Below the pieces are notes generated by a model. It searched no databases. It was not told where the DNA came from and was given only the letters and a program-made list of their open reading frames with translations. From Bdellovibrionales bacterium GWA1_52_35 (lineage in GTDB: Bacteria > Bdellovibrionota > UBA1018), in NCBI GenBank assembly GCA_001769805.1, contig MEPO01000013.1, positions 84,538-148,537 on the forward strand: 64,000 nucleotides of DNA, read 5' to 3'. This document shows positions 12,225-31,136 of this stretch, piece after piece. Each line of letters begins with the position of its first letter. Position 1 is the stretch's first letter. A program made the position numbers and the translations under genes.

Positions 12225-14006
12225 ATGAGAAAACTTCTTTTAGCCAGTGCTGCTGCAAGTACATTGGGCTTGTTCCTTTTAGCTCATCCGAGCCGTGGCG
12301 CGCCCGTACCTCCTCAGAATTGCAAGGACCTGGCCTTCTGGGCTGTTCAACCCGCGCCCAATCCCAACCCCTTCAAGAAGCCTTGTAACAAGAAGTTGGA
12401 TAAATCCGCGTGCACCATTGAAGAAGCTTACGCCCGCATGCTTCCGACTCCTGATCTCTCGGGTAGACTTGCTTACAGCCTGGATCAGGCGGAAGAGAAT
12501 GAATCAGAGCTGGTAAAGCCCTACCTGGATCTGCTGACCCGGTCCCCGGCCATTCAGGAAATCAACCGGATGCGGATCGAAGCGCGTGAACTTGCGGGCT
12601 ACTCCTATGTCTGCGAACCCAATCTGATTTATCTCGGCAAGAAAAAACTTTTCGGACTGGGACCAGTCTTCGTCGACTCAACACGCTTCGTGCTTGGATC
12701 AGCAACATATTCCAATTTTATCTCAGCCGAAGACGCGACTTTCGCCGGCGTTTCACTCCTGAGCAAAGACAGTCTCATCAAGAACAATTATTTCGATATT
12801 GTCGTCGCGCACGAATTGGCGCACGCACTGACCCAGGATCTTTACGGCCTGGATGCGTTTGCAAAAATATTTAAAAAATCCGTATCCCGTGACGGCCACA
12901 TGGCCAGCGCCGTGACGGACCCGACCATTGCTCTCATTGAAGGCGTAGCCGAAGGCTACGAAGCCTACTTCGGAGAAAAACTCCATGGGCGCCATCACAT
13001 TTATCCCACGCCGACTTTGACCCAGATGCTGCTGCAGTCCAATACCGCGGCAGACTTCTTCCAGGAGCGCGGATACCAGGGTTACATCTTCGGAGCACTC
13101 CCGTTCGTCGTGAAGCAATTCACAAGCACTCTCTTCAACATGCCGGCTTTTACGTCGGAATTCCTGATTTCAGAACGGCAGGAGACGATTCGCGAAAACC
13201 ATTTCGTGCTTCAAGGCAGCATGTCCAATCTCGCGCATCAGTTTGAGCTGATCCCCGGCATGGTATCGGATCCGGAACTGGATGCACTGGTCGGATACGA
13301 AATAGAAAATTACGATGCCCTCTTCAGTAAAGAGGGCGTGATCGCGCATCTCATTTACAAACTTCTGAAGGCCGGGTTGCATCGCGAACTCTTTGAAATC
13401 CTCACCCACACTAAGCCCCAGAATTCCTATGAACTCGTAACCAGTATTCTTCGCAATCTGCCTCCGGCCCAACTTGCCCCACTTCTTCCTGCTTTGAAGT
13501 CCACCTTCACGGAACCGGGCCGGCGCGCCGTCCGCGAATACGTCAGAGCCGCTGTCCGTTGGCGCAGAGCCGAGATCACGACTCCGGCTTACCAGGCCGC
13601 AAAATCCGAATTGTCCCGGCAGCTGTCGCGAATTTCAATGCCCTCTTCACTCCCTGCTCCCCGGGAACTCTGGATTGAATTCCAGACGCCTTCTCGGGTT
13701 CGAAGTAAGCTCTACGGGAAGATGGACCGCATCAATATCTACACGGCCACGCCCGACCGGCTTCTTTCGTTCATCACCGCGACCCAGAAACCTGAACTCC
13801 GCAAGAATTCTCACCGCGAACAACTCCTGAAGATCTTGATGAATACGCGGATCCGAGGTTCCGGTGATCGCGCTACGCTCACCCGGAGCCTGCGAGACCA
13901 GATCTCATTCCAGGATGCACAGAAGGCCCAGATGCTCTCGGCACTGATCAGCGGTATCAACCAGGGTGCGGAGTGCTTTCAAAAGCGCTGCCTCAGCTTG
14001 CAGTAA
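12225..14006 (+). CDS. Secreted protein with HExxH zinc-metallopeptidase-like motif
   Basis: Signal peptide MRKLLLASAAASTLGLFLLAHPSRG; VAHELAHALTQDLYG followed by IEGVAEGYEAYF (possible third ligand Glu). Confidence 0.65.
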   Translation: MRKLLLASAAASTLGLFLLAHPSRGAPVPPQNCKDLAFWAVQPAPNPNPFKKPCNKKLDKSACTIEEAYARMLPTPDLSGRLAYSLDQAEENESELVKPYLDLLTRSPAIQEINRMRIEARELAGYSYVCEPNLIYLGKKKLFGLGPVFVDSTRFVLGSATYSNFISAEDATFAGVSLLSKDSLIKNNYFDIVVAHELAHALTQDLYGLDAFAKIFKKSVSRDGHMASAVTDPTIALIEGVAEGYEAYFGEKLHGRHHIYPTPTLTQMLLQSNTAADFFQERGYQGYIFGALPFVVKQFTSTLFNMPAFTSEFLISERQETIRENHFVLQGSMSNLAHQFELIPGMVSDPELDALVGYEIENYDALFSKEGVIAHLIYKLLKAGLHRELFEILTHTKPQNSYELVTSILRNLPPAQLAPLLPALKSTFTEPGRRAVREYVRAAVRWRRAEITTPAYQAAKSELSRQLSRISMPSSLPAPRELWIEFQTPSRVRSKLYGKMDRINIYTATPDRLLSFITATQKPELRKNSHREQLLKILMNTRIRGSGDRATLTRSLRDQISFQDAQKAQMLSALISGINQGAECFQKRCLSLQ

Positions 14007-19065: not shown

Positions 19066-19141
19066 GAGGCATTAGCTCAGTCGGTAGAGCATTACACTTT
19101 TAATGTAAGGGTCCACGGTTCGAATCCGTGATGCCTCACCA
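19066..19141 (+). tRNA. tRNA-Lys (anticodon TTT), CCA encoded
   Basis: Cloverleaf by eye: acceptor GAGGCAT/ATGCCTC, D-arm GCTC..GAGC, anticodon loop CTTTTAA in stem TTACA/TGTAA, T-arm CACGG TTCGAAT CCGTG, discriminator A + CCA. Confidence 0.97.
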
Positions 19142-19269
19142 CTTTAACTCCAAGAAATCAAAACATAATTCAAGAAGACCGGATCAGAGAGATAACTCTG
19201 GAAAATCGTTCGGGGTAACACGGGGGTAACAGAACGACACCCACAAGCTTTGAACTTTTCCAAATTATT

Positions 19270-20190
19270 TTAGGCTGCTTTGTTTTCGTCTGTTACGACA
19301 GCCACAGCCGGGGTAGCCGCTGCCGATGAATCGGGGGCAGTAACCGCAGTACCTTCAATTGCATCAGCCGATAATGGTCCTCGCCTTTTGGTTTTTTTCG
19401 CCTGTTTCTTTTGGTTCCGAATATATCTATCTAGCTCAGCTTTTTGAGTTTCATTCCATGTACCGACCAGATCGTTCAGTCCTTGTTCTAGAAGCTCTGA
19501 AAGCTTGTCGGTCAAAAGGTCAACTGAGGCGCGATAATCATGCTCCCCGTTCAAGACCTTTCCAATGCGCTTCACTACATCGGCGGAAAGGATCGCGCGC
19601 GCCAGAGAGTCGGGCGAAAGCGCTTGAGCTTCAGCCGAAAGCTCTTCCCACGTTTTGCCCTCAAAATAGTTAGCCGAGAACTCTATAAGATCCCACGCAG
19701 CCTCGGTAATCCCCTTACCAGATACATCTAGCTCCTGCTGATCATTTCGAATATCGGTAGATGCAACAGTAATGAGATCACTTTTGAAATCATATAAACG
19801 CCATTCGTAGCCGTTCGTCAGGATTCCCCACCTAACGTCGCCAACGGTCTTCAAATATTCATTAAGCTGTACCTTACCTGAGCGCAAATCTGACTTATTG
19901 AGATCTGCCCCTAGCTTTTTCACTTCCACAAGCAACAAAATCTGCTCAGGCTTATCCGCCTTTGATATGGCGATATCAAATCGCATTTTTGCACGTGCCT
20001 CTTGTGTCCTAACGACGTAGCCGGAACTTGCGCTGAAACCGAGAACTGACTTCAAAAGGGATTGGCACCAACTCTCAATATCGCTTTCCTTAGATGAACC
20101 CGAAGCAAGATTTTTCAATTCAATCATATGCTCAGTCAGTAACGGCGTCATCGAGCGTACGGTTCTTTCATCTTTCGTTTCTTTAGCCAT
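19270..20190 (-). CDS. HsdR-N-terminal-like / PD-(D/E)xK-type protein, paralogue of 24695..25612
   Basis: KMRFDIAISKADKPEQILLLVEVKKLGADLNKSDLRSGKVQLNEYLKTVGDVRWGILTNGYEWRLYDF; D..ExK arrangement and WGILTNGYEWRLYDF typical of type I R-subunit N-terminal domains. Confidence 0.75.
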   Translation of the reverse strand: MAKETKDERTVRSMTPLLTEHMIELKNLASGSSKESDIESWCQSLLKSVLGFSASSGYVVRTQEARAKMRFDIAISKADKPEQILLLVEVKKLGADLNKSDLRSGKVQLNEYLKTVGDVRWGILTNGYEWRLYDFKSDLITVASTDIRNDQQELDVSGKGITEAAWDLIEFSANYFEGKTWEELSAEAQALSPDSLARAILSADVVKRIGKVLNGEHDYRASVDLLTDKLSELLEQGLNDLVGTWNETQKAELDRYIRNQKKQAKKTKRRGPLSADAIEGTAVTAPDSSAAATPAVAVVTDENKAA

Positions 20191-20201
20191 TTAGTGCCCT
20201 C

Positions 20202-20217
20202 TATTCGTTTTGGAATA
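20202..20217. promoter_or_regulatory. Operator-like inverted repeat TATTC-GTTTTG-GAATA
   Basis: Perfect 5-bp arms, 6-bp spacer, about 12 nt upstream of the start codon at 20190 (minus). Confidence 0.5.
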
Positions 20218-20349
20218 CAGTGCTTGTATCGGAACAACACCAGTTGTTCTGAAGACAAAAAAAACTTCCACATTTTTTGTGTGGCAATGATTTCACTTTA
20301 GGCGGCAGGCACCCGAACCGCCGTGTCTCAGATAATTGATTAACCCTTA

Positions 20350-20817
20350 TTATTGAATTGGCTTTTCTGTTGCGCGGTCACAGACCGCAGCCCAACTACC
20401 ATTCACGCATTTAATAGAGCAATCTGAGCTTCTTTTTTTTGGAATTGGACCAGAGCAACTCTTCTTTGTGCTTGGGGGTGCTTTGAAATTCTCATCTTCA
20501 CCTTTTAAACTTGTGCCCGTAGCCGAATCTAATGCTGTCGGACTTGGCGTAGCCTCACATTTTTGTGGCGCGCTTTTGCAGGCCGCAAAGCACTCATAAC
20601 CACTAAATGCGCTACCACAACCAAAGATTCGCTCTGGCCTGTGCCCGCATAACTCCATTGCACGCGACTTTATGGCATCAACTTCACAAGAGGGCCCATC
20701 GCTGCAACGCACATTAATTAACCACGTATGTCCGTCTGGCAACATAGCCTCTTTGTAAGCTGTTGCACAGCCGGAGCTATAAGCTACGAGTAAGGAAAAG
20801 ATAAGAACCCTTCTCAT
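20350..20817 (-). CDS. Small Cys-rich predicted lipoprotein
   Basis: MRRVLIFSLLVAYSSGCATAYKEAM lipobox; multiple Cys. Confidence 0.6.
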   Translation of the reverse strand: MRRVLIFSLLVAYSSGCATAYKEAMLPDGHTWLINVRCSDGPSCEVDAIKSRAMELCGHRPERIFGCGSAFSGYECFAACKSAPQKCEATPSPTALDSATGTSLKGEDENFKAPPSTKKSCSGPIPKKRSSDCSIKCVNGSWAAVCDRATEKPIQ

Positions 20818-20833
20818 GTGTGTAGCTCCTCAA

Positions 20834-21112
20834 TCACTTCGAACATGGTACATCGAAGCCAAAAGCGCTCTTGCACGCAACTTTCCGCTCGGGTTCTCCC
20901 GGTTGTGGCACGCCGTCCATCTGCCTAGTACGGTAGCACATTGGACCTGCATTTTGATCCGCATCATGAGCCTTGCAGTAATACAGCGACATTCCCACCG
21001 TTCCGTGTTCCGTTACATTAAACCATCCGCTTTTCTCGTGGGTTAAAAACACGCCCGTAGTTGGAGCACACCCAAAGAACACAATAACCGAAATGAGTAC
21101 GAATCTCCTCAT
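20834..21112 (-). CDS. Small predicted lipoprotein
   Basis: MRRFVLISVIVFFGCAPTTGVFL lipobox; longer ORF from 21187 has an unlikely N-terminus. Confidence 0.55.
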   Translation of the reverse strand: MRRFVLISVIVFFGCAPTTGVFLTHEKSGWFNVTEHGTVGMSLYYCKAHDADQNAGPMCYRTRQMDGVPQPGEPERKVACKSAFGFDVPCSK

Positions 21113-21222
21113 ACCCACCTTTCGGTTTTGGTGCATTTGAAGGTTCCATTGAAATCTGCTTTCCCGCAGCAAACCAAACCAATCCATTTACTAGAACAGC
21201 CGACAGCAGTTGAATTTTTCAT

Positions 21223-21242
21223 ACTATTCAATTCGGAATAGT
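21223..21242. promoter_or_regulatory. Operator-like inverted repeat ACTATTC-AATTCG-GAATAGT
   Basis: Perfect 7-bp arms, 6-bp spacer; upstream of the minus-strand lipoprotein gene. Confidence 0.5.
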
Positions 21243-21287
21243 TTGAAGCAAACATGAGTCAACTAATTCGCACTATTCCCAGCATCT

Positions 21288-21953
21288 CTATTCCGGTATT
21301 TCAACGCCCTGCACCTCAATGTCATCAGTACGCGGCGTTCGAGAAATGCCCGTATCAATTATGTAAGTGATCGGCCTATCAGGATCGCCCACGACCTTCG
21401 TCTTATTCCCGTAAACGTCTGGATTACTGATCTGAGCTACCCACTGGTAAGCCGCAACTTTAACCCGCGATGCCTGTACGTTGTCCTCATCAACCGTATC
21501 CGCTACCTCGATTACCTTTCCCTCAAAGAAGTCGGCCCGGCATTCCCGAGCAATCCTCATGTGCGCCCGGAACTCGGGATGCTCTCTCAGCCACCTGAAA
21601 ATCGTGTGAGCCGGTGGAAAGCCCTCTAATTGCCCAATCTGAGTGACCGCAAGACCTTCCGTAACCTTTTGAAGTATTTGGTCACAAGTCACCTGAGCGA
21701 ATGGGAACGCTACACGAGGCAGTTCGTCCGGGTTTGTACCTTTCGGCACCCAGAGCTTCCGGCCACGGTCATCAATGATATGATGATGCGTTTCGCTCGG
21801 CTTCTTGTCGGCGTTCGTATACTTGATTCGAGCAGGATCACGGCTTGAGCGTTTCTTCTTCTCAACCCAAAGGACGGCGCCAGTCTCTGGATCAAGGCCC
21901 TCAAGAACGCCCTCGGCGTTTACTCGCGTGATCTGTTTATCTGTCTCGCTCAT
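21288..21953 (-). CDS. Phage terminase small subunit-like protein
   Basis: HTH-like ICDQILQKVTEGLAVTQIGQLEGFPPAHTIFRWLREHPEFRAHMRIARECRADFFEGKVIEVADTV..SRVKVAAYQWVAQISNPDVYGNKTKVVGD matches the terminase-small-subunit pattern (ATVYRWL..pEFr..Y..Ar..qad.l.dei...ad). Confidence 0.72.
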   Translation of the reverse strand: MSETDKQITRVNAEGVLEGLDPETGAVLWVEKKKRSSRDPARIKYTNADKKPSETHHHIIDDRGRKLWVPKGTNPDELPRVAFPFAQVTCDQILQKVTEGLAVTQIGQLEGFPPAHTIFRWLREHPEFRAHMRIARECRADFFEGKVIEVADTVDEDNVQASRVKVAAYQWVAQISNPDVYGNKTKVVGDPDRPITYIIDTGISRTPRTDDIEVQGVEIPE

Positions 21954-22169
21954 GGAACAACTCCTATTAAGAGGGTTAACATTGTTTTAAACGCTATTCG
22001 GAAGCGGCGCATAATAAGGCCGTGAAAATGCGTTGCAGCATCGGTTTTTCAGAAAAACTTGTCCCGAACATGGAAAGGTCACCACACGTCAGGCGAGCTG
22101 CGCGTTTTGGGGTGTATGGGGTCAAATCAAAGGCCACCGGGGATGTCTGTGGGGTGATCAATGAGCAAC

Positions 22170-22373
22170 TCATCGCTTGCCCTTAGTGCCCTGCTCTCGC
22201 AGCCACGTAACGTAGTCCTCAAGAATTGTGGTCACCAAGACTGAGAGGTCATGCCCAGCATTTTCTGCCGCTTCCCTCAGTGCTTCCTTAGTGGACTCCT
22301 TCACCCTGACTGAAAGGGTCTTGGTTGGTTCCTTCTTCTTAATCTCACTCGGATGTCTGTATCTCGCGGTCAT
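22170..22373 (-). CDS. Ribbon-helix-helix (CopG/Arc-type) DNA-binding protein
   Basis: 67 aa; TKTLSVRVKESTKEALREAAENAGHDLSVLVTTILEDYV. Confidence 0.75.
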   Translation of the reverse strand: MTARYRHPSEIKKKEPTKTLSVRVKESTKEALREAAENAGHDLSVLVTTILEDYVTWLREQGTKGKR

Positions 22374-22409
22374 AATTTCACCTTATATGAATCACCACAC
22401 GTTTACAAT

Positions 22410-22420
22410 ATGTATTACAT
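22410..22420. promoter_or_regulatory. Near-perfect palindrome ATGTATTACAT between RHH gene and recombinase gene
   Basis: Lies 4 bp upstream of a TTGACA (22425..22430) that is 17 bp from TAGAAG (22448..22453). Confidence 0.45.
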
Positions 22421-22473
22421 TCTGTTGACAAATAGACTAGCGACCTGTAGAAGCGTGCGCGAGAGGTGCAGTT

Positions 22474-23043
22474 ATGGCCAATCGTGTAGCAATTTATTTG
22501 AGAGTATCGACCCAAGATCAAGCCACTGAGTTACAGCAGCGCGAACTCACGGCGTATGTTCAAGCCCGTGGCTGGGTTGTATTCAAGACCTACGAGGACA
22601 AGGCCACCGGAACCACTGCCAATCGAGCCATGCTCAAGGCTATGCTAACCGATGCACGCCTGCGCCGATTCGATCGCATCATAGTATGGAAGCTTGATCG
22701 GTTTGCCAGATCGCTCAAAGACCTCGTTACAATGCTTCAGGAACTATCTGAACTGGGAATTGAGTTCATCAGCTTACGGGACAATATCGACCTCACCACA
22801 AGCTCAGGGCGGCTTATGATGCATATGATTGGTGCATTTGCTGAGTTTGAAGCCAGCATTATCCGCGAGCGGGTACGTGCCGGGATCGCCAACGCCCGAG
22901 CAAAAGGGAAACGATTGGGGCGCCCAAAGACAAGGGATGACGGCACAATCAAAGCATTGCGCAGGCAAGGGCTATCAATCCGATCCATTGCATTGCAGGC
23001 ACACTGTTCTGCAGGGGCCGTACAGCGGGCTCTGCTATCCTGA
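22474..23043 (+). CDS. Serine recombinase (resolvase/invertase family)
   Basis: VAIYLRVSTQDQATELQQRELTAYVQARGW, IIVWKLDRFARSLKDLV, GRLMMHMIGAFAEFEASIIRERVRAGIANARAKGKRLGRPK, C-terminal HTH. Confidence 0.96.
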   Translation: MANRVAIYLRVSTQDQATELQQRELTAYVQARGWVVFKTYEDKATGTTANRAMLKAMLTDARLRRFDRIIVWKLDRFARSLKDLVTMLQELSELGIEFISLRDNIDLTTSSGRLMMHMIGAFAEFEASIIRERVRAGIANARAKGKRLGRPKTRDDGTIKALRRQGLSIRSIALQAHCSAGAVQRALLS

Positions 23044-23140
23044 CGAGTCACATATAGCATCACAGAACCACAGGACGAGCCTGAGAACTAAATTACAAAT
23101 ATCGCTCAATGAGAGCTGTATCTAGACCGAAACTATCAGT

Positions 23141-23548
23141 ATGAAACGAATTATCTATTTAGTTCTGATCTTGGCATTACCCGCATTACCGGGCACTGCG
23201 TTTGCGAAGAATCTTTTTTGCAACGAAATAGGATCAACAGATCTAATGTGGGAAAAGACAAAACAAAACTTCAGTACTCAGGGGTATAGTATCCCAAAAA
23301 ATCCAGCTACCTTTGCAATTTCAAATTTTGATTCAAAAAAACCGATGCTCGTTGGAAACGCCGGGAACGAAGAACTCGCACGCAAAGGTGATTATTTTTT
23401 CGAAGCTACGCCTGTCGGAAATATTAATCTGTACCGCTGGTATCGATTGGACGCTAACACTGGTCTGATCCTCATGATTAAAGCATACGATATGCTGGGA
23501 GCCCCGTATTCGATTTCTGTCGCATACAAATGCAAAGTCGGAATTTAG
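23141..23548 (+). CDS. Small secreted hypothetical protein
   Basis: MKRIIYLVLILALPALPGTAFAKNLFCNE signal peptide. Confidence 0.5.
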   Translation: MKRIIYLVLILALPALPGTAFAKNLFCNEIGSTDLMWEKTKQNFSTQGYSIPKNPATFAISNFDSKKPMLVGNAGNEELARKGDYFFEATPVGNINLYRWYRLDANTGLILMIKAYDMLGAPYSISVAYKCKVGI

Positions 23549-23600
23549 CGACCTAGGGTCGGTGTATCGAAATTCCTGATCAAATCAAACCAAAAATGCC

Positions 23601-23851
23601 TTATTTATTCGGAGCGAGTAAGCGCAGATACTTCGTATTCAAAACATTAGATTTCGATGCATCGAAATAATTATTCCGACCTTTTCCTCTGTGCCGGTTA
23701 AGCGTTTCGATTTGAGTGGTGAAAGTCCGCATAAGCTTGTTCGCCCATTCGATATTTAGGGCGACCCCTTTGCTTGATAAACCCTTGTTGTTTGCTCGAC
23801 CAAACAATCCATCGCAAGATTATGAACGGCCGCCATTTGGGCTGAGAGCAT
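23601..23851 (-). pseudogene. Frameshifted/truncated remnant of a phage/plasmid-type conserved protein
   Basis: Two overlapping reverse frames: MLSAQMAAVHNLAMDCLVEQTTRVYQ (23851..23756) and ..EWANKLMRTFTTQIETLNRHRGKGRNNYF (23807..23601). Together they resemble the 'QMxAxHxxAMECxRRA...QANKLxRTxxxQxExLxRHRGKGQQ' architecture (recalled family pattern). Confidence 0.5.
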
Positions 23852-23968
23852 ACCCCACAATCACGCCTGATCCGAACCTTTAGCGCACCGGTTATTTCGA
23901 AGCTGCGGGGAAATTCGAATCAACTGGCACAACTTGCAAGTGGCGCATATCCACTAAAATAATTTCAC

Positions 23969-23988
23969 AATATTCGTTCAAGAATATT
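23969..23988. promoter_or_regulatory. Operator-like inverted repeat AATATTC-GTTCAA-GAATATT
   Basis: Perfect 7-bp arms, 6-bp spacer; 23 bp upstream of the lipoprotein start at 24012. Confidence 0.5.
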
Positions 23989-24011
23989 GCTATCCTATCC
24001 GAATAGCATTC

Positions 24012-24647
24012 ATGAGAATAATTCTCGCACTGTTGATTCCGGCTCTCTCCGGATGTGCACACTACTCGCCAATGCTGCCACAAGAAACGTGCGCACTGGA
24101 CAATATGAAGCACTCCGTTTCTGCCCACGGCTCAGGTGCTGCGGTTGCAGGACTGCAGACTTTGGCAACAGACAATGAAGCGACCGTTTGCACAAAGCCC
24201 CAGAATGAAATCGATGTGATCGCGATAAAGGAAGACGCGGAATCGGCCAAAAAGAAGATCAAATACAACAGTCGCGTATACCAGCAGAAACTGGGGTACA
24301 AAATTGCGATCTCGTCCTATTTGGCAACTGTATTGATCGGCAGCTCTAAAACACCTGCAGACGGGTCTACTTTAGTCCAAAATTCAAGCGGGCAGTTCAT
24401 GATTGCAGACAGACAGTATCCGCATCTGTATTGGGTTCCGGTAATTGGTCCCATACTCAATATCAGCGAATATCCCGGCGAAATGACATCCGGTTGGAAG
24501 GCAGCCAGCATCATCAGCTCTCTAACTCAGTCGTTTGGAGTTGGATTAATTGTATTGAACATTCCCAGAGCTGACTTTGGTGAACCAACTATTAGAATTG
24601 ATCCAGCGCCCTCCGGTATACAGACCAGTCTACAGCTTAAATTTTAA
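24012..24647 (+). CDS. Predicted lipoprotein
   Basis: MRIILALLIPALSGCAHYS lipobox, 211 aa. Confidence 0.6.
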   Translation: MRIILALLIPALSGCAHYSPMLPQETCALDNMKHSVSAHGSGAAVAGLQTLATDNEATVCTKPQNEIDVIAIKEDAESAKKKIKYNSRVYQQKLGYKIAISSYLATVLIGSSKTPADGSTLVQNSSGQFMIADRQYPHLYWVPVIGPILNISEYPGEMTSGWKAASIISSLTQSFGVGLIVLNIPRADFGEPTIRIDPAPSGIQTSLQLKF

Positions 24648-24694
24648 GGTTTATCAGAAAACATAATCGCACGTACTTTCGAAAGGACCAACAC

Positions 24695-25612
24695 ATGAGC
24701 CGTGAAACGAAACAAGATCGCCTCGTACGAGGAATGAATGACCAAGTGCTTGAGCATCTACACGAACTCAAAGCACTCGAAGCAAACCCCGCTACAAAGG
24801 AGCTTGATCTGGAACGATGGTGTCAAAGCGTCGTTCGAAATTGCCTCGGATTCACGCCCACCAATGGCTATAACATCCGAGCACAAGAGACCCGTGGCAA
24901 AATGCGACCCGATCTCCTGGTTATGAAAGGTGACGTAATTGTGTGCGTAATAGAGGTGAAGAAACTCGGTTTTGACCTTTCAAAATCGGATTTCCGCTCA
25001 GGGAAGGTCCAACTCGCAGAATATCTTAACGCTCTTGGCGATGTCCGTTGGGGAATTCTCTCGAATGGCTACGAGTGGCGGCTATACGACTTCTCCCAGA
25101 GAAATGCTGGCGGAACTGAAGTAACTTCTTTTGACCTGCGAAACGAGGAAGACCAAATCGACTTAACAAAACGCTCTATTGACGACATTTGCTGGAGCTT
25201 CGTCGACCTTCATGAGTCAATGTATGCAGGAAACTCTTGGGAAAATCTTGCAAAAGAAGCGACGGCATTCTCGCCGGAATCACTTGCTCGAGCTATTTTA
25301 TCAGCGGAGTCGGTGAAATACATCGCCAAAATTATTCGCGGAGAGCATGACTACCGAGCTAATACGGAAGTCTTGTTTGATAAACTCTCGACCCTACTTC
25401 AGAACGGGTTGGATGACTGCGCACATGGATGGAATGAGGTGAAGCAGGCGGAACTTGGAAAATACGTTACCTCTCAGAAGCGTGCGGGAAGAAGAAGAGC
25501 TGCTAAAGAGGCTAAGACGTCCGCTACCCCACCTCCTATAAAAGAGGGAACGTCAGAAGCAACTCAGGAGGCCTGCACTCCCCCTAACCCAACCGCGAAA
25601 CAGGCCGCCTAA
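24695..25612 (+). CDS. HsdR-N-terminal-like / PD-(D/E)xK-type protein, paralogue of 19270..20190
   Basis: RGKMRPDLLVMKGDVIVCVIEVKKLGFDLSKSDFRSGKVQLAEYLNALGDVRWGILSNGYEWRLYDF; PD..ExK. Confidence 0.78.
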   Translation: MSRETKQDRLVRGMNDQVLEHLHELKALEANPATKELDLERWCQSVVRNCLGFTPTNGYNIRAQETRGKMRPDLLVMKGDVIVCVIEVKKLGFDLSKSDFRSGKVQLAEYLNALGDVRWGILSNGYEWRLYDFSQRNAGGTEVTSFDLRNEEDQIDLTKRSIDDICWSFVDLHESMYAGNSWENLAKEATAFSPESLARAILSAESVKYIAKIIRGEHDYRANTEVLFDKLSTLLQNGLDDCAHGWNEVKQAELGKYVTSQKRAGRRRAAKEAKTSATPPPIKEGTSEATQEACTPPNPTAKQAA

Positions 25613-25700
25613 TCACCATCACAAGGAGAGCGAGTTCTTTTGGCGCTTCTAAAAAACCAGTAATCAACCTTCAAAGCCCTCTGAACAGAACCTAGGCGTA

Positions 25701-26462
25701 TTAAGAATCGCTGGCTCTGGGCCTCGACTCTTTTAGCCCATACGCTTGCTCCACAGACGTAAACCAATTGAACCGGAACAGATGCCAGAGTGCCGCGAAG
25801 CCATCTTTCCAGGTGATCTTCTTGCCCTGACGTCGGGTTCGCGGATGGTACGAGATCGGCAACTCCTGAATTCTTATACTGACTTTGGCGAGGTACGCCG
25901 TCAACTCAACTTCAACCCCAAAGCGTTTCGATTGCAGCCGCATGGACTTGAGCAGCTCCGCGCGAAACACTTTGTAACAAGTTTCCATGTCCGACAGATG
26001 GATACCCGAAAGCAGATTACTCAAAATCGTCAGAATACGATTAGCGAAATAGTGCCAGGTCCAATGCGCCTGGAATGATCCTTCGCCGAACCGGTTGCCA
26101 TAGACGACATCAGCCCGCTGCTCAATCAGCGGCTCCAGAAGCCTGGCAACATCAGAAAGATCATATTCAAAATCAGCGTCCTGAATCACTATGAAATCGC
26201 CGCTGGCAGCTTCAATTCCGCGAATGACAGCGGCACCTTTGCCCTGATTATTTTCCTGAACAATAATTTTGAAGTCATATTGGCGCTGGAGTGTTTTGAG
26301 GACTGTCAGGCTGGCATCATTCGAAAAATCGTCTACAAAGATCCACTCACATTGGACTGGAAGAGTCTTCGCCTTTTCCATCAACGCTTGAACTACTTGC
26401 GCGAGGTGCTCCGCTTCATTGTAGACAGGCACGATCAACGTCAAAATACTGCGGTTTTCCAC
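25701..26462 (-). CDS. Family 2 glycosyltransferase, dolichol-phosphate-mannose synthase-like
   Basis: LIVPVYNEAEHLAQVV, EWIFVDDFSNDASL, VIQDADFEYDLSDVARLLEPL, DMETCYKVFR. Confidence 0.92.
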   Translation of the reverse strand: MENRSILTLIVPVYNEAEHLAQVVQALMEKAKTLPVQCEWIFVDDFSNDASLTVLKTLQRQYDFKIIVQENNQGKGAAVIRGIEAASGDFIVIQDADFEYDLSDVARLLEPLIEQRADVVYGNRFGEGSFQAHWTWHYFANRILTILSNLLSGIHLSDMETCYKVFRAELLKSMRLQSKRFGVEVELTAYLAKVSIRIQELPISYHPRTRRQGKKITWKDGFAALWHLFRFNWFTSVEQAYGLKESRPRASDS

Positions 26463-26521
26463 CTAAAATGAATATGAGCTGGGATCACGAAAGTCAACGA
26501 TCCACTTGAAGCTCAAATAAC

Positions 26522-28711
26522 TCAGGGACGAAGAAAACCAAACAGCTTATTCAAACACCCCGCGACCGCAGCTGTAGATTTCTTGACCGGCAAAGGAATG
26601 GTCGAATGAGGCTTCACGGGCGAATATTGCCGGAATTTCAACTTGATATTCTGATCTCCGGCTTTCCACCATTTGCTTTCGTCCGAAGAGCCCAGAAGAA
26701 ATTCAACCGTGTGGCTCTGATCTTTCAGAGAAATGCGGAATTCCACTTTGTCCCCAAGAATATCGGCTTTGACCTTTCCTGAATTTTTCCAGCCATCGAT
26801 TGAGTATTTCAAATTTGCCCCTTCAATCTCGCTCAGCGGGATGCTGTGGCCGAAGAATTTTACCTGCCCGTTGACAACCGGCTGCTCAAGAATGAGCCGG
26901 TACTCAGATGAGCGGGCATCGTAGATATATCGGTTGATACTGCCGCTGATCGGCTCTTTGGCTTCATGAACTGTGAATTTGTAGGGATCAGGGCTCCGGT
27001 AGCCCCGCCTGGAATTTGCGATGGTGGAATCGATGTAATTCCAGATCGTGGAACGATCTCCCGTCTTGAGATACTCATCGATCAAGGTCGTATCCTTCGC
27101 TTGTAAATCCGGACGATACAGTGCAGGAGTTTCAAGGTTGACGAGATGAGCTTTTTCGGAAGCGTAATTCATCAGAGACTGCGGCGGAATTCCATCTTTC
27201 TGGGCTTCAATCAGCACCATTTTCATGAACTCATGATAGGCGTCAGCAAATTCAGTACTGTTAGTGAAATCCGGCAAGGTCCTCGACAAGGAAGCGCTCA
27301 GGGACTGCTTGTCCATCGGATTCTGATCAACCAGCTCGGTCATCACTTTCTTCATGTCATAGGTCGTGGTACTTACCGGCATTACCTTGTCCACGTTTAC
27401 CGGTTTTGCACCCTGAAGTGCCGCCCTCTTTATCAATTCTGCAAGGCGAGAGGCTTCGTCAGTACTTCCAAGTTTTTTGACCAGATTGGCCGGCGCGCCA
27501 GTGAGTTCCAGGAATAACTCAGAAATACGAGCGTCATAAACCTTTTGGAACCGAGCCGTGAGCGACTCGGAAGAAGGGATCGCATTCTGAAGCCCCTCAG
27601 GGAGGTGATCCCTCAACGAAGCCACAAAGTTCCTAATCAACTCATTTTGAATCTCGACTGTTTGTCCCGCGCCCTCGACAGAATTGAGGATTCGAATTTG
27701 CCCATAGCCGGGCTGCGCGGTCATCGTACCGAAATCAAGGAACTTGCCGGTTACCTCGAAATTGGATTGGCTGGCAGTACCGTGATAGACGCGCTTAACG
27801 AACGCTGAGGCATACTGTTCCGCCACACGATCGCTGTATTCATGTAGCCCGGCAACAAGCTTCTTCTCTGCGGAGGCCCCGCTCAGTTCAGGCGGAACCG
27901 GCAGTACGTTAATAATCAGTTTTGCGGAAGCAGCGGTTCTGGACCTGTCACTGCGAATTAAGGTACCGCTGCCATTGGGCGCTCTCATGTAATGGGCCGG
28001 TCGAATTGGATCTTCCCGGATGATCAGGGCATTACGCTCCCTGCCGCCATCCTTCCACACTGTATAGGTGCCCGGGTCTATAACGGCGATCACTCGATTT
28101 GCGCCGTGAGGCAGATCATTGCTCATTTCGCCCCAAATCACCTCTCGGATGGACTCCTCCAAAGATGCGCGACCATGCGCATGGTCATAACCTTGACCGT
28201 GTCCTACCAGAGGAGTGACACCGATGCCTTTGATCTGGATTTTGCCCGCCGAAGCCGCGCGACCACTCCCGAAGTTATAGCCAATCCCCCTGCCCCCATA
28301 GCGATCTGCATAGAATGTTTTTTCTTTGGACGTGTATGTCGCCGGAGAGTCATTCGGCCCTGGCACGCCCCAGGCAAAAGCATTCAATATTTCTTTTTCA
28401 AACTCCGGCACGAGTCCTTCGGCTGGAATATCAATTCCCGCTTCGCGAAGCAGATCGTAATTAAGCCAAAGCACTTTGGCATTCGCCAATTGCTTTGCTT
28501 TCACTTTGACATAGCCTTCCGGCGCTATTGCGAGACCCAGTAATTTGGGTGGTCCCGCGCTCAGTGTTTCAATCGGGGCTGCTAAAATCGCCGGGCCCCA
28601 GCTCAGGAGCAGGAGAAGGGAAATTGAGCGAACCAGAATTGCCTGAAAATGAGAACGCAGCATCATTATCTGATCGGCTATTGACGGGCAAAAGCTGAGA
28701 ACTGAAGCCAC
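26522..28711 (-). CDS. Predicted exported SelO-like (protein adenylyltransferase/pseudokinase fold) protein
   Basis: N-terminal hydrophobic signal-like segment; YGGRGIGYNFGSGRAASAGKIQIKGIGVTPLVGHGQGYDHAHGRASLEESIREVIWGEM and HGTASQSNFEVTGKFLDFGTMT parallel SelO QLKGxGPTP..DGRAxLRxSIREFLxSEAM and [20 protein letters not shown]. Confidence 0.6.
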   Translation of the reverse strand: MASVLSFCPSIADQIMMLRSHFQAILVRSISLLLLLSWGPAILAAPIETLSAGPPKLLGLAIAPEGYVKVKAKQLANAKVLWLNYDLLREAGIDIPAEGLVPEFEKEILNAFAWGVPGPNDSPATYTSKEKTFYADRYGGRGIGYNFGSGRAASAGKIQIKGIGVTPLVGHGQGYDHAHGRASLEESIREVIWGEMSNDLPHGANRVIAVIDPGTYTVWKDGGRERNALIIREDPIRPAHYMRAPNGSGTLIRSDRSRTAASAKLIINVLPVPPELSGASAEKKLVAGLHEYSDRVAEQYASAFVKRVYHGTASQSNFEVTGKFLDFGTMTAQPGYGQIRILNSVEGAGQTVEIQNELIRNFVASLRDHLPEGLQNAIPSSESLTARFQKVYDARISELFLELTGAPANLVKKLGSTDEASRLAELIKRAALQGAKPVNVDKVMPVSTTTYDMKKVMTELVDQNPMDKQSLSASLSRTLPDFTNSTEFADAYHEFMKMVLIEAQKDGIPPQSLMNYASEKAHLVNLETPALYRPDLQAKDTTLIDEYLKTGDRSTIWNYIDSTIANSRRGYRSPDPYKFTVHEAKEPISGSINRYIYDARSSEYRLILEQPVVNGQVKFFGHSIPLSEIEGANLKYSIDGWKNSGKVKADILGDKVEFRISLKDQSHTVEFLLGSSDESKWWKAGDQNIKLKFRQYSPVKPHSTIPLPVKKSTAAVAGCLNKLFGFLRP

Positions 28712-28726
28712 AAAATTCTTTAAATC

Positions 28727-30118
28727 CTAAAACCAGACATGACAGGCAAGTCCTGGAGCCGCTGTTTTGTCGTCACCCACGTAAGCGGGGGTCAGAATAC
28801 CTTTGCGGGTCATCCCTGTTTTTTTCGATTTATCTGAAAAACCAAAATGCAGATAACGAGGTAGGACGAAACCCGCAAGCAACCCTACCGCGGTCCCGGC
28901 CGCAACATCTGACAGGTAGTGATTGTCTGAAACAATCCGCATCACGCCTGTGGCTGATGCCAACGCCAAAGAAGCCAGGCAGGCTGCGTTGTCCGCAGCC
29001 TTGGAGTCATATAGGCTCAAATACGAATGCGAAGTGCAGATCAACCCTGCCGCCGTGAAGGCCAGGGCCGAGTGCCCACTCATGAAGCTCTTGCGATCTT
29101 CAAGTGATCCACAGATCTCGCCGGGAGGACAGTTTTCGACAAACGGGCGGTTGCGGTCGAAAGCGGCCTTGGTTGCATTTGAAAGCATTCCTGCGAAGAG
29201 AAAAGACTCTGCACTGATCAATCCCAGCTGTACGGCAGTTTCAGTATCGGTTTTGCCGCGAGCCCGGGCAACACCGGCATCGAGCATGGGGTACAGAATC
29301 AAACCACCCATCAGGACCGTGCTCGCTTTTGATATCAGGTCGTTCGTCTTCGAATCCGAAAGGCCCATCAGGCTTCTGATCTTTTCATCGAACCCCGGTG
29401 CGTCGCCAAACTGCAAAGGCTTGCTTGGGCGAAGAATATCGTTCGTCAGGAAAGTCGTGGCCCCCATCAAACCGACCGCAATATACTCACTTTTTCGAAA
29501 TTTGGGCCACTGAGGGTCCCATTTCACGATTTCTTTTTTCTCGAGGATTTTCGGTTCATACCGGCTCAAGGAAGCCAGCAGATTTTCCTTCAACCTGGGC
29601 GTCGCCGCCTGTTCTTTGAGCTTGTCCGCAAGTTCACGCAGAGACTTTCTGGATGCTTCGGGCAACTTCAGATCGGCTTGCTTCAGACTGGACTCTATTG
29701 CCTCAGCATGCACGAGAAGCCCCCGGCGAATTTCCTCTTCTGACTGATTTTCTATAATCAGGCGTTCATTCATGATCAGAAGCCGGGCCTTCGAAACAGA
29801 TTCCAGCAACTCCACTTCAGCAGCGGGCTTCCCGTTCTGATCGCAGGTCAACCAGCCTCGCTCCCCCTCTTTGTCTCCAAAGGTCAGGAGTGCAGGATTG
29901 GAAGTAGGCAGAAGGTCCGGTGCCCCGGCTGTGCAAACCTGCACTTGATTGGGTTCAAGGATCGTGAGGGAGTGCTGCGCGCGATCCCAGGTCTTGAGCA
30001 GAAGATCGTCTTCGGCCGTGCGCAGGACTTCAGACCAAGCTGGCGTGATCACGATTCCGGAAATCCAGATAAGACTCAAAAGAGTTGCAAACTTCATAAC
30101 TATACAAAATTCTACCAC
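28727..30118 (-). CDS. PAP2-family phosphatase (lipid phosphatase-like)
   Basis: AAFDRNRPF, SFMSGHSALAFTAAGLIC, SDNHYLSDVAAGTAVG correspond to PAP2 motifs. Confidence 0.88.
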   Translation of the reverse strand: MVEFCIVMKFATLLSLIWISGIVITPAWSEVLRTAEDDLLLKTWDRAQHSLTILEPNQVQVCTAGAPDLLPTSNPALLTFGDKEGERGWLTCDQNGKPAAEVELLESVSKARLLIMNERLIIENQSEEEIRRGLLVHAEAIESSLKQADLKLPEASRKSLRELADKLKEQAATPRLKENLLASLSRYEPKILEKKEIVKWDPQWPKFRKSEYIAVGLMGATTFLTNDILRPSKPLQFGDAPGFDEKIRSLMGLSDSKTNDLISKASTVLMGGLILYPMLDAGVARARGKTDTETAVQLGLISAESFLFAGMLSNATKAAFDRNRPFVENCPPGEICGSLEDRKSFMSGHSALAFTAAGLICTSHSYLSLYDSKAADNAACLASLALASATGVMRIVSDNHYLSDVAAGTAVGLLAGFVLPRYLHFGFSDKSKKTGMTRKGILTPAYVGDDKTAAPGLACHVWF

Positions 30119-30232
30119 GCGTCATTCGGACGGAATACAAAATCGAAGTATCAGCTTTATAGAGCAGCTCAGGGGATACAACACGGTGCATTAATCTTAA
30201 TTTCTGGTCTGAACACTGCATCTTTGCACCCC

Positions 30233-30394
30233 ATGGAAAAAGATGCGGTGAAATCCCCAGAACCTGATCGTCTCCGGAACCATCCCCAAGCCGAGCCTCG
30301 ACGCAGCAAACCGGACCCGACCACCGTTCGTCGCGAACGCGCCAAAGCCTTACGCTTGAAGAACAGAGCCAAGCGCATGCGCAGAGTGGGCTGA
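30233..30394 (+). CDS. Small basic hypothetical protein (53 aa)
   Basis: MEKDAVKSPEPDRLRNHPQAEPRRSKPDPTTVRRERAKALRLKNRAKRMRRVG; in frame within the longer track ORF 29945..30394. Confidence 0.4.
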   Translation: MEKDAVKSPEPDRLRNHPQAEPRRSKPDPTTVRRERAKALRLKNRAKRMRRVG

Positions 30395-30464
30395 AGTTTC
30401 GGGGATAATAATTTCGCGGGTAATAAATTGACGCCCAATTTCTTTTCATGAGAGAAGGGCGGGG

Positions 30465-31136
30465 ATGATTACGTTTCAAGACATTGTTGTTGTCGGCTTC
30501 CTCGCTTTTTTGGAAGCAATTCTTTCGATCGATAATGCGGTCGTGCTGGCCGTCATGGTCAAACACCTGCCTCCGAAGCAACAAAAGATGGCCCTGACTT
30601 ACGGGCTCGCCGGCGCAGTCGTCTTCCGTCTGATCGCCTTATCCATTGCCACCTATCTTATTCAGATGCGGTGGGTGAAATTTGTCGGCGGCGGTTATCT
30701 CATTTTCATCGGACTCAAACACCTTCTGCAGAAACAGCCGCACGGAGACGAAACCAAACCTGTCCGTCATGCAGGTTTCTGGAAAACAGTCGTCATGATC
30801 GAAATCATGGATATTGCTTTCGCGGTCGATTCAATCCTGGCCGCGGTTGCCATCAGCCCCAAGCTCTGGATCGTTTTCTTCGGCGGGTTCATCGGAGTGC
30901 TGATGATTCGTTATGCGGCGACCTTTTTTGCAAAATTATTGCTCAATTTCCCGACCTTCGAAGTTTCGGCCTACTTGCTGGTACTCGTGATCGGCCTGAA
31001 ACTCACCATGGAGGGCTTTCATTTTCCGGGCGTGGATTTTATGAGCGCTTCGAATCCCGCCTTCTGGATTTTCTGGATGGCTATGGCTCTCTGCGTGGCC
31101 TTTGGTTTCAGGCGGACAAAGAAGTCACCGTCTTGA
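30465..31136 (+). CDS. TerC family integral membrane protein
   Basis: LEAILSIDNAVVLAVMVKHLPPKQQKMALTYGL, MIEIMDIAFAVDSILAAVAIS. Confidence 0.93.
   Translation: MITFQDIVVVGFLAFLEAILSIDNAVVLAVMVKHLPPKQQKMALTYGLAGAVVFRLIALSIATYLIQMRWVKFVGGGYLIFIGLKHLLQKQPHGDETKPVRHAGFWKTVVMIEIMDIAFAVDSILAAVAISPKLWIVFFGGFIGVLMIRYAATFFAKLLLNFPTFEVSAYLLVLVIGLKLTMEGFHFPGVDFMSASNPAFWIFWMAMALCVAFGFRRTKKSPS

Follow-up and report, generated by a model that had tools for sequence, protein, structure and literature searches.

Two stand-alone HsdR-N-like proteins from separate branches of one family in an insertion at a tRNA-Lys gene of a Bdellovibrionales bacterium

The stretch of DNA analyzed here (64,000 nucleotides of contig MEPO01000013.1 from Bdellovibrionales bacterium GWA1_52_35, hereafter the window) contains two intact open reading frames (ORFs), named copy A and copy B, that encode homologous proteins resembling the N-terminal nuclease domain of the type I restriction subunit HsdR (Table 1). 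BLASTP gave 47% identity over 304 amino acids (286 bits, E 7e-101), an E value because of which the likeness was not ascribed to chance; within the 39-residue stretch quoted in the initial annotation, 32/39 residues matched by direct count. Copy A matched PF13588 at 25.2 bits, just above the cut-off of 25, and copy B matched PF04313 at 28.0 bits (cut-off 25.1). PF04313 was also matched at E<0.01 by 20/20 collected members of the family. A length of ~305 amino acids leaves no space for a helicase motor in either protein; the domain scan detected none, and superfamily 2 (SF2) helicase/translocase domains had no match in A or B. Signal peptide features were absent from both proteins. The window genome holds only these two copies of the family.

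Alignment of 20 members showed that D73, E87-x-K89 and Q106xxxY110 (B numbering) were invariant in 20/20, which completes the active-site D/E/K set of a PD-(D/E)xK nuclease; the QxxxY motif after ExK is known from HsdR. In each protein, an HsdR/type IIG-like PD-(D/E)xK domain (residues ~36-135) precedes a helical domain that is conserved (~159-275); a disordered, variable linker then leads to a short C-terminal tail, again conserved. The AlphaFold model m41b7f2c89690, part of the evidence for copy B, was of moderate confidence (mean predicted local distance difference test score, pLDDT, 77.5; predicted template modelling score, pTM, 0.59), and its element order, alpha-beta-beta-beta-alpha-beta, is that of the PD-(D/E)xK core, followed by the helical domain and a disordered end. 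The best solved match found by Foldseek was the type IIG enzyme BpuSI (3s1s, E 8.7e-4), followed by DrdV (7lo5, E 4.9e-3), RecU (E 0.059) and EcoR124I HsdR (E 0.096). Since the template modelling (TM) scores were low, the fold support covers the nuclease core, not the whole protein. A sequence search of solved structures returned one match, lactate dehydrogenase, which was judged to be due to chance.

The family shares the ExK and QxxxY motifs with the HsdR nuclease domain (PF04313/PF13588) but lacks the SF2 translocase and adjacent HsdM/HsdS and has a helical C-terminal domain of its own; no HsdM/HsdS gene was present in the window stretch, and none was common among the neighbour loci of family copies. 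Type IIG enzymes (BpuSI, DrdV, MmeI) provided the best fold matches, together with weak MmeI_N matches in 12/20 members, whereas domain scans found no methyltransferase or specificity domain in any member. A phage protein with unassigned function, phrog_17239, weakly matched residues 32-269 of copy A (E 3e-9), but residues 60-136 only of copy B, and no close phage relatives of the family were found. No PADLOC system matched the family protein at full length; weak matches were obtained with some members (best E 5e-6). No settled role is known for HsdR-N-like proteins that stand alone. By motif and model, then, A and B are stand-alone PD-(D/E)xK-type proteins with the complete HsdR-type motif set, as the initial annotation had described them, and they are predicted to cleave DNA.

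Both genes lie in DNA inserted at a transfer RNA (tRNA) gene. The order purA then tRNA-Lys was kept in most relatives, and empty sites were found in four genomes (G002, G022, G006 and G018), in which a terC-like gene comes next after tRNA-Lys, with the match starting ~10-110 bp past the tRNA. According to these relatives the insertion runs from 19141 to 30465, so that 11.3 kb (19142-30464) separate tRNA-Lys from terC in the window. Copy A is convergent with tRNA-Lys, with 129 bp between its stop codon and the 3' end of the tRNA; copy B lies inside the insertion and not at its end. The two copies had been thought to bracket the island, but they do not mark the insertion ends, unless the block at 25.7-30.1 kb arrived as a separate event. 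In the host's family, the site behind purA and tRNA-Lys was occupied by unlike insertions in some relatives and by none in others (L113, L115, L117, L119, L121, L127), so tRNA-Lys is an insertion hotspot.

Table 1. Features of the tRNA-Lys insertion, with coordinates in the window.
Feature	Position	Strand	Evidence
Copy A, stand-alone HsdR-N-like PD-(D/E)xK protein, 306 aa (amino acids)	19270..20190	-	intact ORF, PF13588, BLASTP, tree
A active-site stretch: D72, E89-x-K91, Q108xxxY112	19855..19977	-	alignments
A C-terminal tail NKAA	19273..19284	-	alignment
Copy B, stand-alone HsdR-N-like PD-(D/E)xK protein, 305 aa	24695..25612	+	intact ORF, PF04313, BLASTP, tree, model
B active-site stretch: D73, E87-x-K89, Q106xxxY110	24911..25024	+	alignment of 20 members
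B C-terminal tail KQAA	25598..25609	+	alignment
tRNA-Lys (TTT), left edge of insertion	19066..19141	+	ARAGORN; purA-tRNA-Lys order in most relatives
TerC-type membrane protein (named by resemblance), right edge of insertion	30465..31136	+	first gene after tRNA-Lys at empty sites
Two small secreted/lipoprotein-like ORFs, 155 and 117 aa, without family match	20350..21187	-	ORF list, profile scans
Phage terminase small subunit, Sf6 type	21288..21953	-	PF20901 E 7e-25
Small serine recombinase	22474..23043	+	PF00239 E 2e-45
Two secreted/lipoprotein-like ORFs, 135 and 211 aa, without family match	23141..24647	+	ORF list, profile scans
Glycosyltransferase, 729-aa protein, 463-aa protein	25701..30118	-	likewise missing between tRNA-Lys and terC from relatives with empty sites

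The family was carried by 23 of 369 Bdellovibrionota genomes, nearly always in single copy, and the window genome was the only carrier with two full copies; the two matches seen in each of two other genomes were fragments of a single gene that was broken or split. A decayed member, out of frame and with its C-terminal part deleted, was observed at L055:8028-8744, 451 bp after a tRNA-Gly. When 50,697 phage records and 72,556 plasmids were searched by tblastn, no relative was found at 1e-5, and E<=1 gave only partial HsdR-N/type IIG-like matches; a scan of IMG/VR with two profiles found no family relative. Within the searches used, the family appears so far only in Bdellovibrionota. In a maximum-likelihood tree of 20 members, copy A paired with the copy of genome G360 (support 100/100, branch 1.55), apart from the other 18 members, and copy B grouped with those of G347 and G009. 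The G360 protein, the nearest relative of A (70% identity), comes from a genome of another taxonomic family. Because A falls with G360 and B with G347 and G009, the split between A and B is older than the window island, and so the two would have met in the window by separate arrival. When the island arms were compared for an inverted duplication, the A and B genes, within which one 116-bp stretch shows 74% DNA identity, were the sole match between the two arms, and the remaining arm genes were unrelated. As judged from their sequences, A and B are single members of two old family branches that were acquired independently.

The surroundings of 22 family copies were compared. Wherever the fetched DNA included a tRNA (15/15 loci, corresponding to ~10 independent ones, since six Bdellovibrio copies share one tRNA-Met site), the gene lay on the 3' side of that tRNA, and the tRNAs involved were Lys, Met, His, two Gly, Leu, Val, Cys and Gln. 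Five of the ~18 independent loci were <=500 bp from a tRNA, against 0.24 expected (P ~3e-6) under a simple uniform model of 36 tRNAs per 3.78 Mb that ignores gene clustering. Like copy A, the copies of G256 (59 bp) and G230 (226 bp) are convergent with the tRNA; that of G237 lies 98 bp from a tRNA-Met fragment, and the Bdellovibrio copies lie 5-13 kb away. Direct repeats derived from tRNAs were found in L059 (67 bp), L046 (30 bp) and L166 (15 bp), and a search with Rfam for tRNA fragments beside the copies returned only two whole tRNAs that were already known. At L059:3848-7819, the 67-bp repeat of the tRNA-Leu 3' half flanks ~2.3 kb in which the C-terminal part of a family member remains, and at L166:9441-17191 the 15-bp repeat of the tRNA-Met 3' end lies at 13069, followed further on by a type IIG restriction enzyme. 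In B. bacteriovorus HD100 and Tiberius, strain-specific islands as well as single genes have been reported to lie at tRNAs (PMC3539863); these are like the present loci in their position, whereas the family itself is not described in the accessible part of that report. The homologues are nearly all singletons, and the positional association that they do show is with the 3' flanks of tRNAs, not with a second copy. Set against the refuting conditions named in the initial annotation (singletons lacking a positional association, or no PD-(D/E)xK fold), the outcome is mixed, as single copies prevail but both the predicted fold and an association of position are present.

The neighbours of family copies were diverse and included several defence genes, those of G237, G357, G244, G246, G223 and G206 within ~12 kb. 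AbiEi/AbiEii was present in G237, AbiEi with a GIY-YIG protein in G357, and an AbiE-like pair, recognized by its similarity to that of G237, in G344. In the Bdellovibrio genome G244 (L045:9362-13758), a II-A retron (reverse transcriptase and NDT-type partner) and a DUF4917/PDC-S21 gene lie between the family member and tRNA-Met. A type IIG enzyme was found in G246 and YhcG/PDC-S02 in G206, while the tRNA-Met island of G223 (L163:4736-12632) contains an integrase, a 1572-aa primase-reverse transcriptase like DRT UG10 and a SIR2_2 protein; an integrase is also present in the G009 island. The 142 neighbour proteins matched 185 PADLOC families, compared with 24 from 71 core control ORFs, a difference in variety that is suggestive and, as families and not hit proteins were counted, does not amount to an enrichment test.

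Among the Bdellovibrio copies, nonsynonymous differences amounted to 0.07-0.14 per site, and synonymous sites were saturated, so that no ratio of nonsynonymous to synonymous rates (dN/dS) was derived. Nonsynonymous differences of 7-14% together with synonymous saturation indicate that the protein is maintained under strong purifying selection. The C-terminus was conserved as well: in 19/19 full-length members the end is [AV]-[AS], preceded by ~40 residues that lack conservation. For the last residue alone, such conservation had an expectation of ~7e-12 from the linker composition, a figure that is overstated because the sequences are related. In both the window genome and G223, the tag of the transfer-messenger RNA (tmRNA) reads GNDYALAA, and the family end is reminiscent of the ALAA with which this tag closes. 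It is a reasonable idea that the tail may be a built-in degradation tag. In the EcoKI system, HsdR is known to be degraded by ClpXP (PMC4231737).

Among the other genes of the insertion, the Sf6-type terminase small subunit adjoins the serine recombinase, an arrangement that might be characteristic of a phage satellite. The B half of the window stretch was matched most closely by a short contig of G347 (L053:9-4749), which carries a serine recombinase, a Cro-like regulator, a family member, a PLD-like protein and a terminase large subunit. Its recombinase, located next to the family member, is a relative of the one in the window; no relative of its terminase large subunit, nor any other large subunit, was seen in the window. 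The serine recombinase was considered as a constant partner of the family and rejected, given that only the window and G347 have one beside the family member.

The reading that we favor, and to which we give about even chances, is that the family is a single-gene, island-borne nuclease of the defence type, of which A and B are two independently acquired members. The gene would travel as cargo of mobile stretches entering at the 3' ends of tRNA genes, and the 11.3-kb stretch at tRNA-Lys would carry a representative of both old branches. The protein would cut DNA, acting against incoming DNA either alone or with non-linked host factors. As no methyltransferase is linked to it, it would have to spare host DNA by substrate choice or by scarcity: either it would recognize some trait of foreign DNA, or its amount would be kept low, for example through proteolysis via the tail. 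Several observations weigh against this reading. The all-against-all comparison of neighbours found no constant partner gene in >4/22 loci, the family itself aside, so the link to defence is one of island company only, and the core control ORFs also gave PADLOC matches, though to fewer families. For several copies, the surrounding ~8-20 kb contain no tRNA. At the far edge of the insertion, no direct repeat of the tRNA-Lys 3' end (attR) was found in the window, and the mobile origin of this particular stretch therefore rests on the empty sites.

The main rivals of the defence-type reading are phage origin and element maintenance. The genes could be relics of phages or phage satellites, or cargo that these package together with genes for terminase and recombinase, as suggested by the terminase small subunit in the window stretch, the G347 copy with a terminase large subunit and a serine recombinase beside it, the weak near-full-length match of A to phrog_17239 and a structural match to an HsdR-N protein of an uncultured caudovirus (E 9.5e-6). 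Yet the searches of phage records, plasmids and IMG/VR yielded no relative, phage genes are absent from most loci, and we consider this origin unlikely. That the protein serves the mobile element itself, in excision, integration or maintenance, we hold to be unlikely: the Bdellovibrio copies are strongly constrained despite their distance from the tRNA, other loci have a proper integrase, and PD-(D/E)xK domains of this type are not known to act as integrases. It would, however, account for several loci in which the family gene is nearest to the tRNA end and faces it, where an integrase often lies (the convergent copies and that of G237 above), and the domain scan saw no tyrosine integrase among the ORFs of the window stretch. 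A role as a housekeeping-type, RecU-like nuclease in repair or recombination, with loss from the majority of lineages, would fit RecU among the fold matches (E 0.06) and the strong purifying selection, but is very unlikely in view of the patchy spread, the unlike genomic places and the location on islands. Finally, the local duplication with divergence, or the two-component nuclease-modulator pair, put forward in the initial annotation is highly improbable, since the A/B identity, their outward orientation in the same island and the 116-bp stretch are outweighed by the kinship of A with G360, the single copies in nearly all other carriers and the unrelated arm genes; of that annotation, the nuclease type, the homology and the mobile stretch have stood, and the duplication, the pair and the bracketing have not.

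Within the defence-type reading, a more specific version would make the family a defence that consists of a single nuclease gene and is peculiar to predatory bacteria and related lineages, restrained by ClpXP-type proteolysis through the tail and released on infection. We regard this version as distinctly unlikely; if it were true, degradation via the tail would make it safe to carry a nuclease that lacks a protective methyltransferase. The family combines an intact set of active-site residues with a single copy in each genome and a habitual position after a tRNA; a role of the protein in guarding predators from phages or from foreign DNA would be directly testable, and the family may serve as a marker for tRNA-linked defence islands in a phylum whose defence is little studied.

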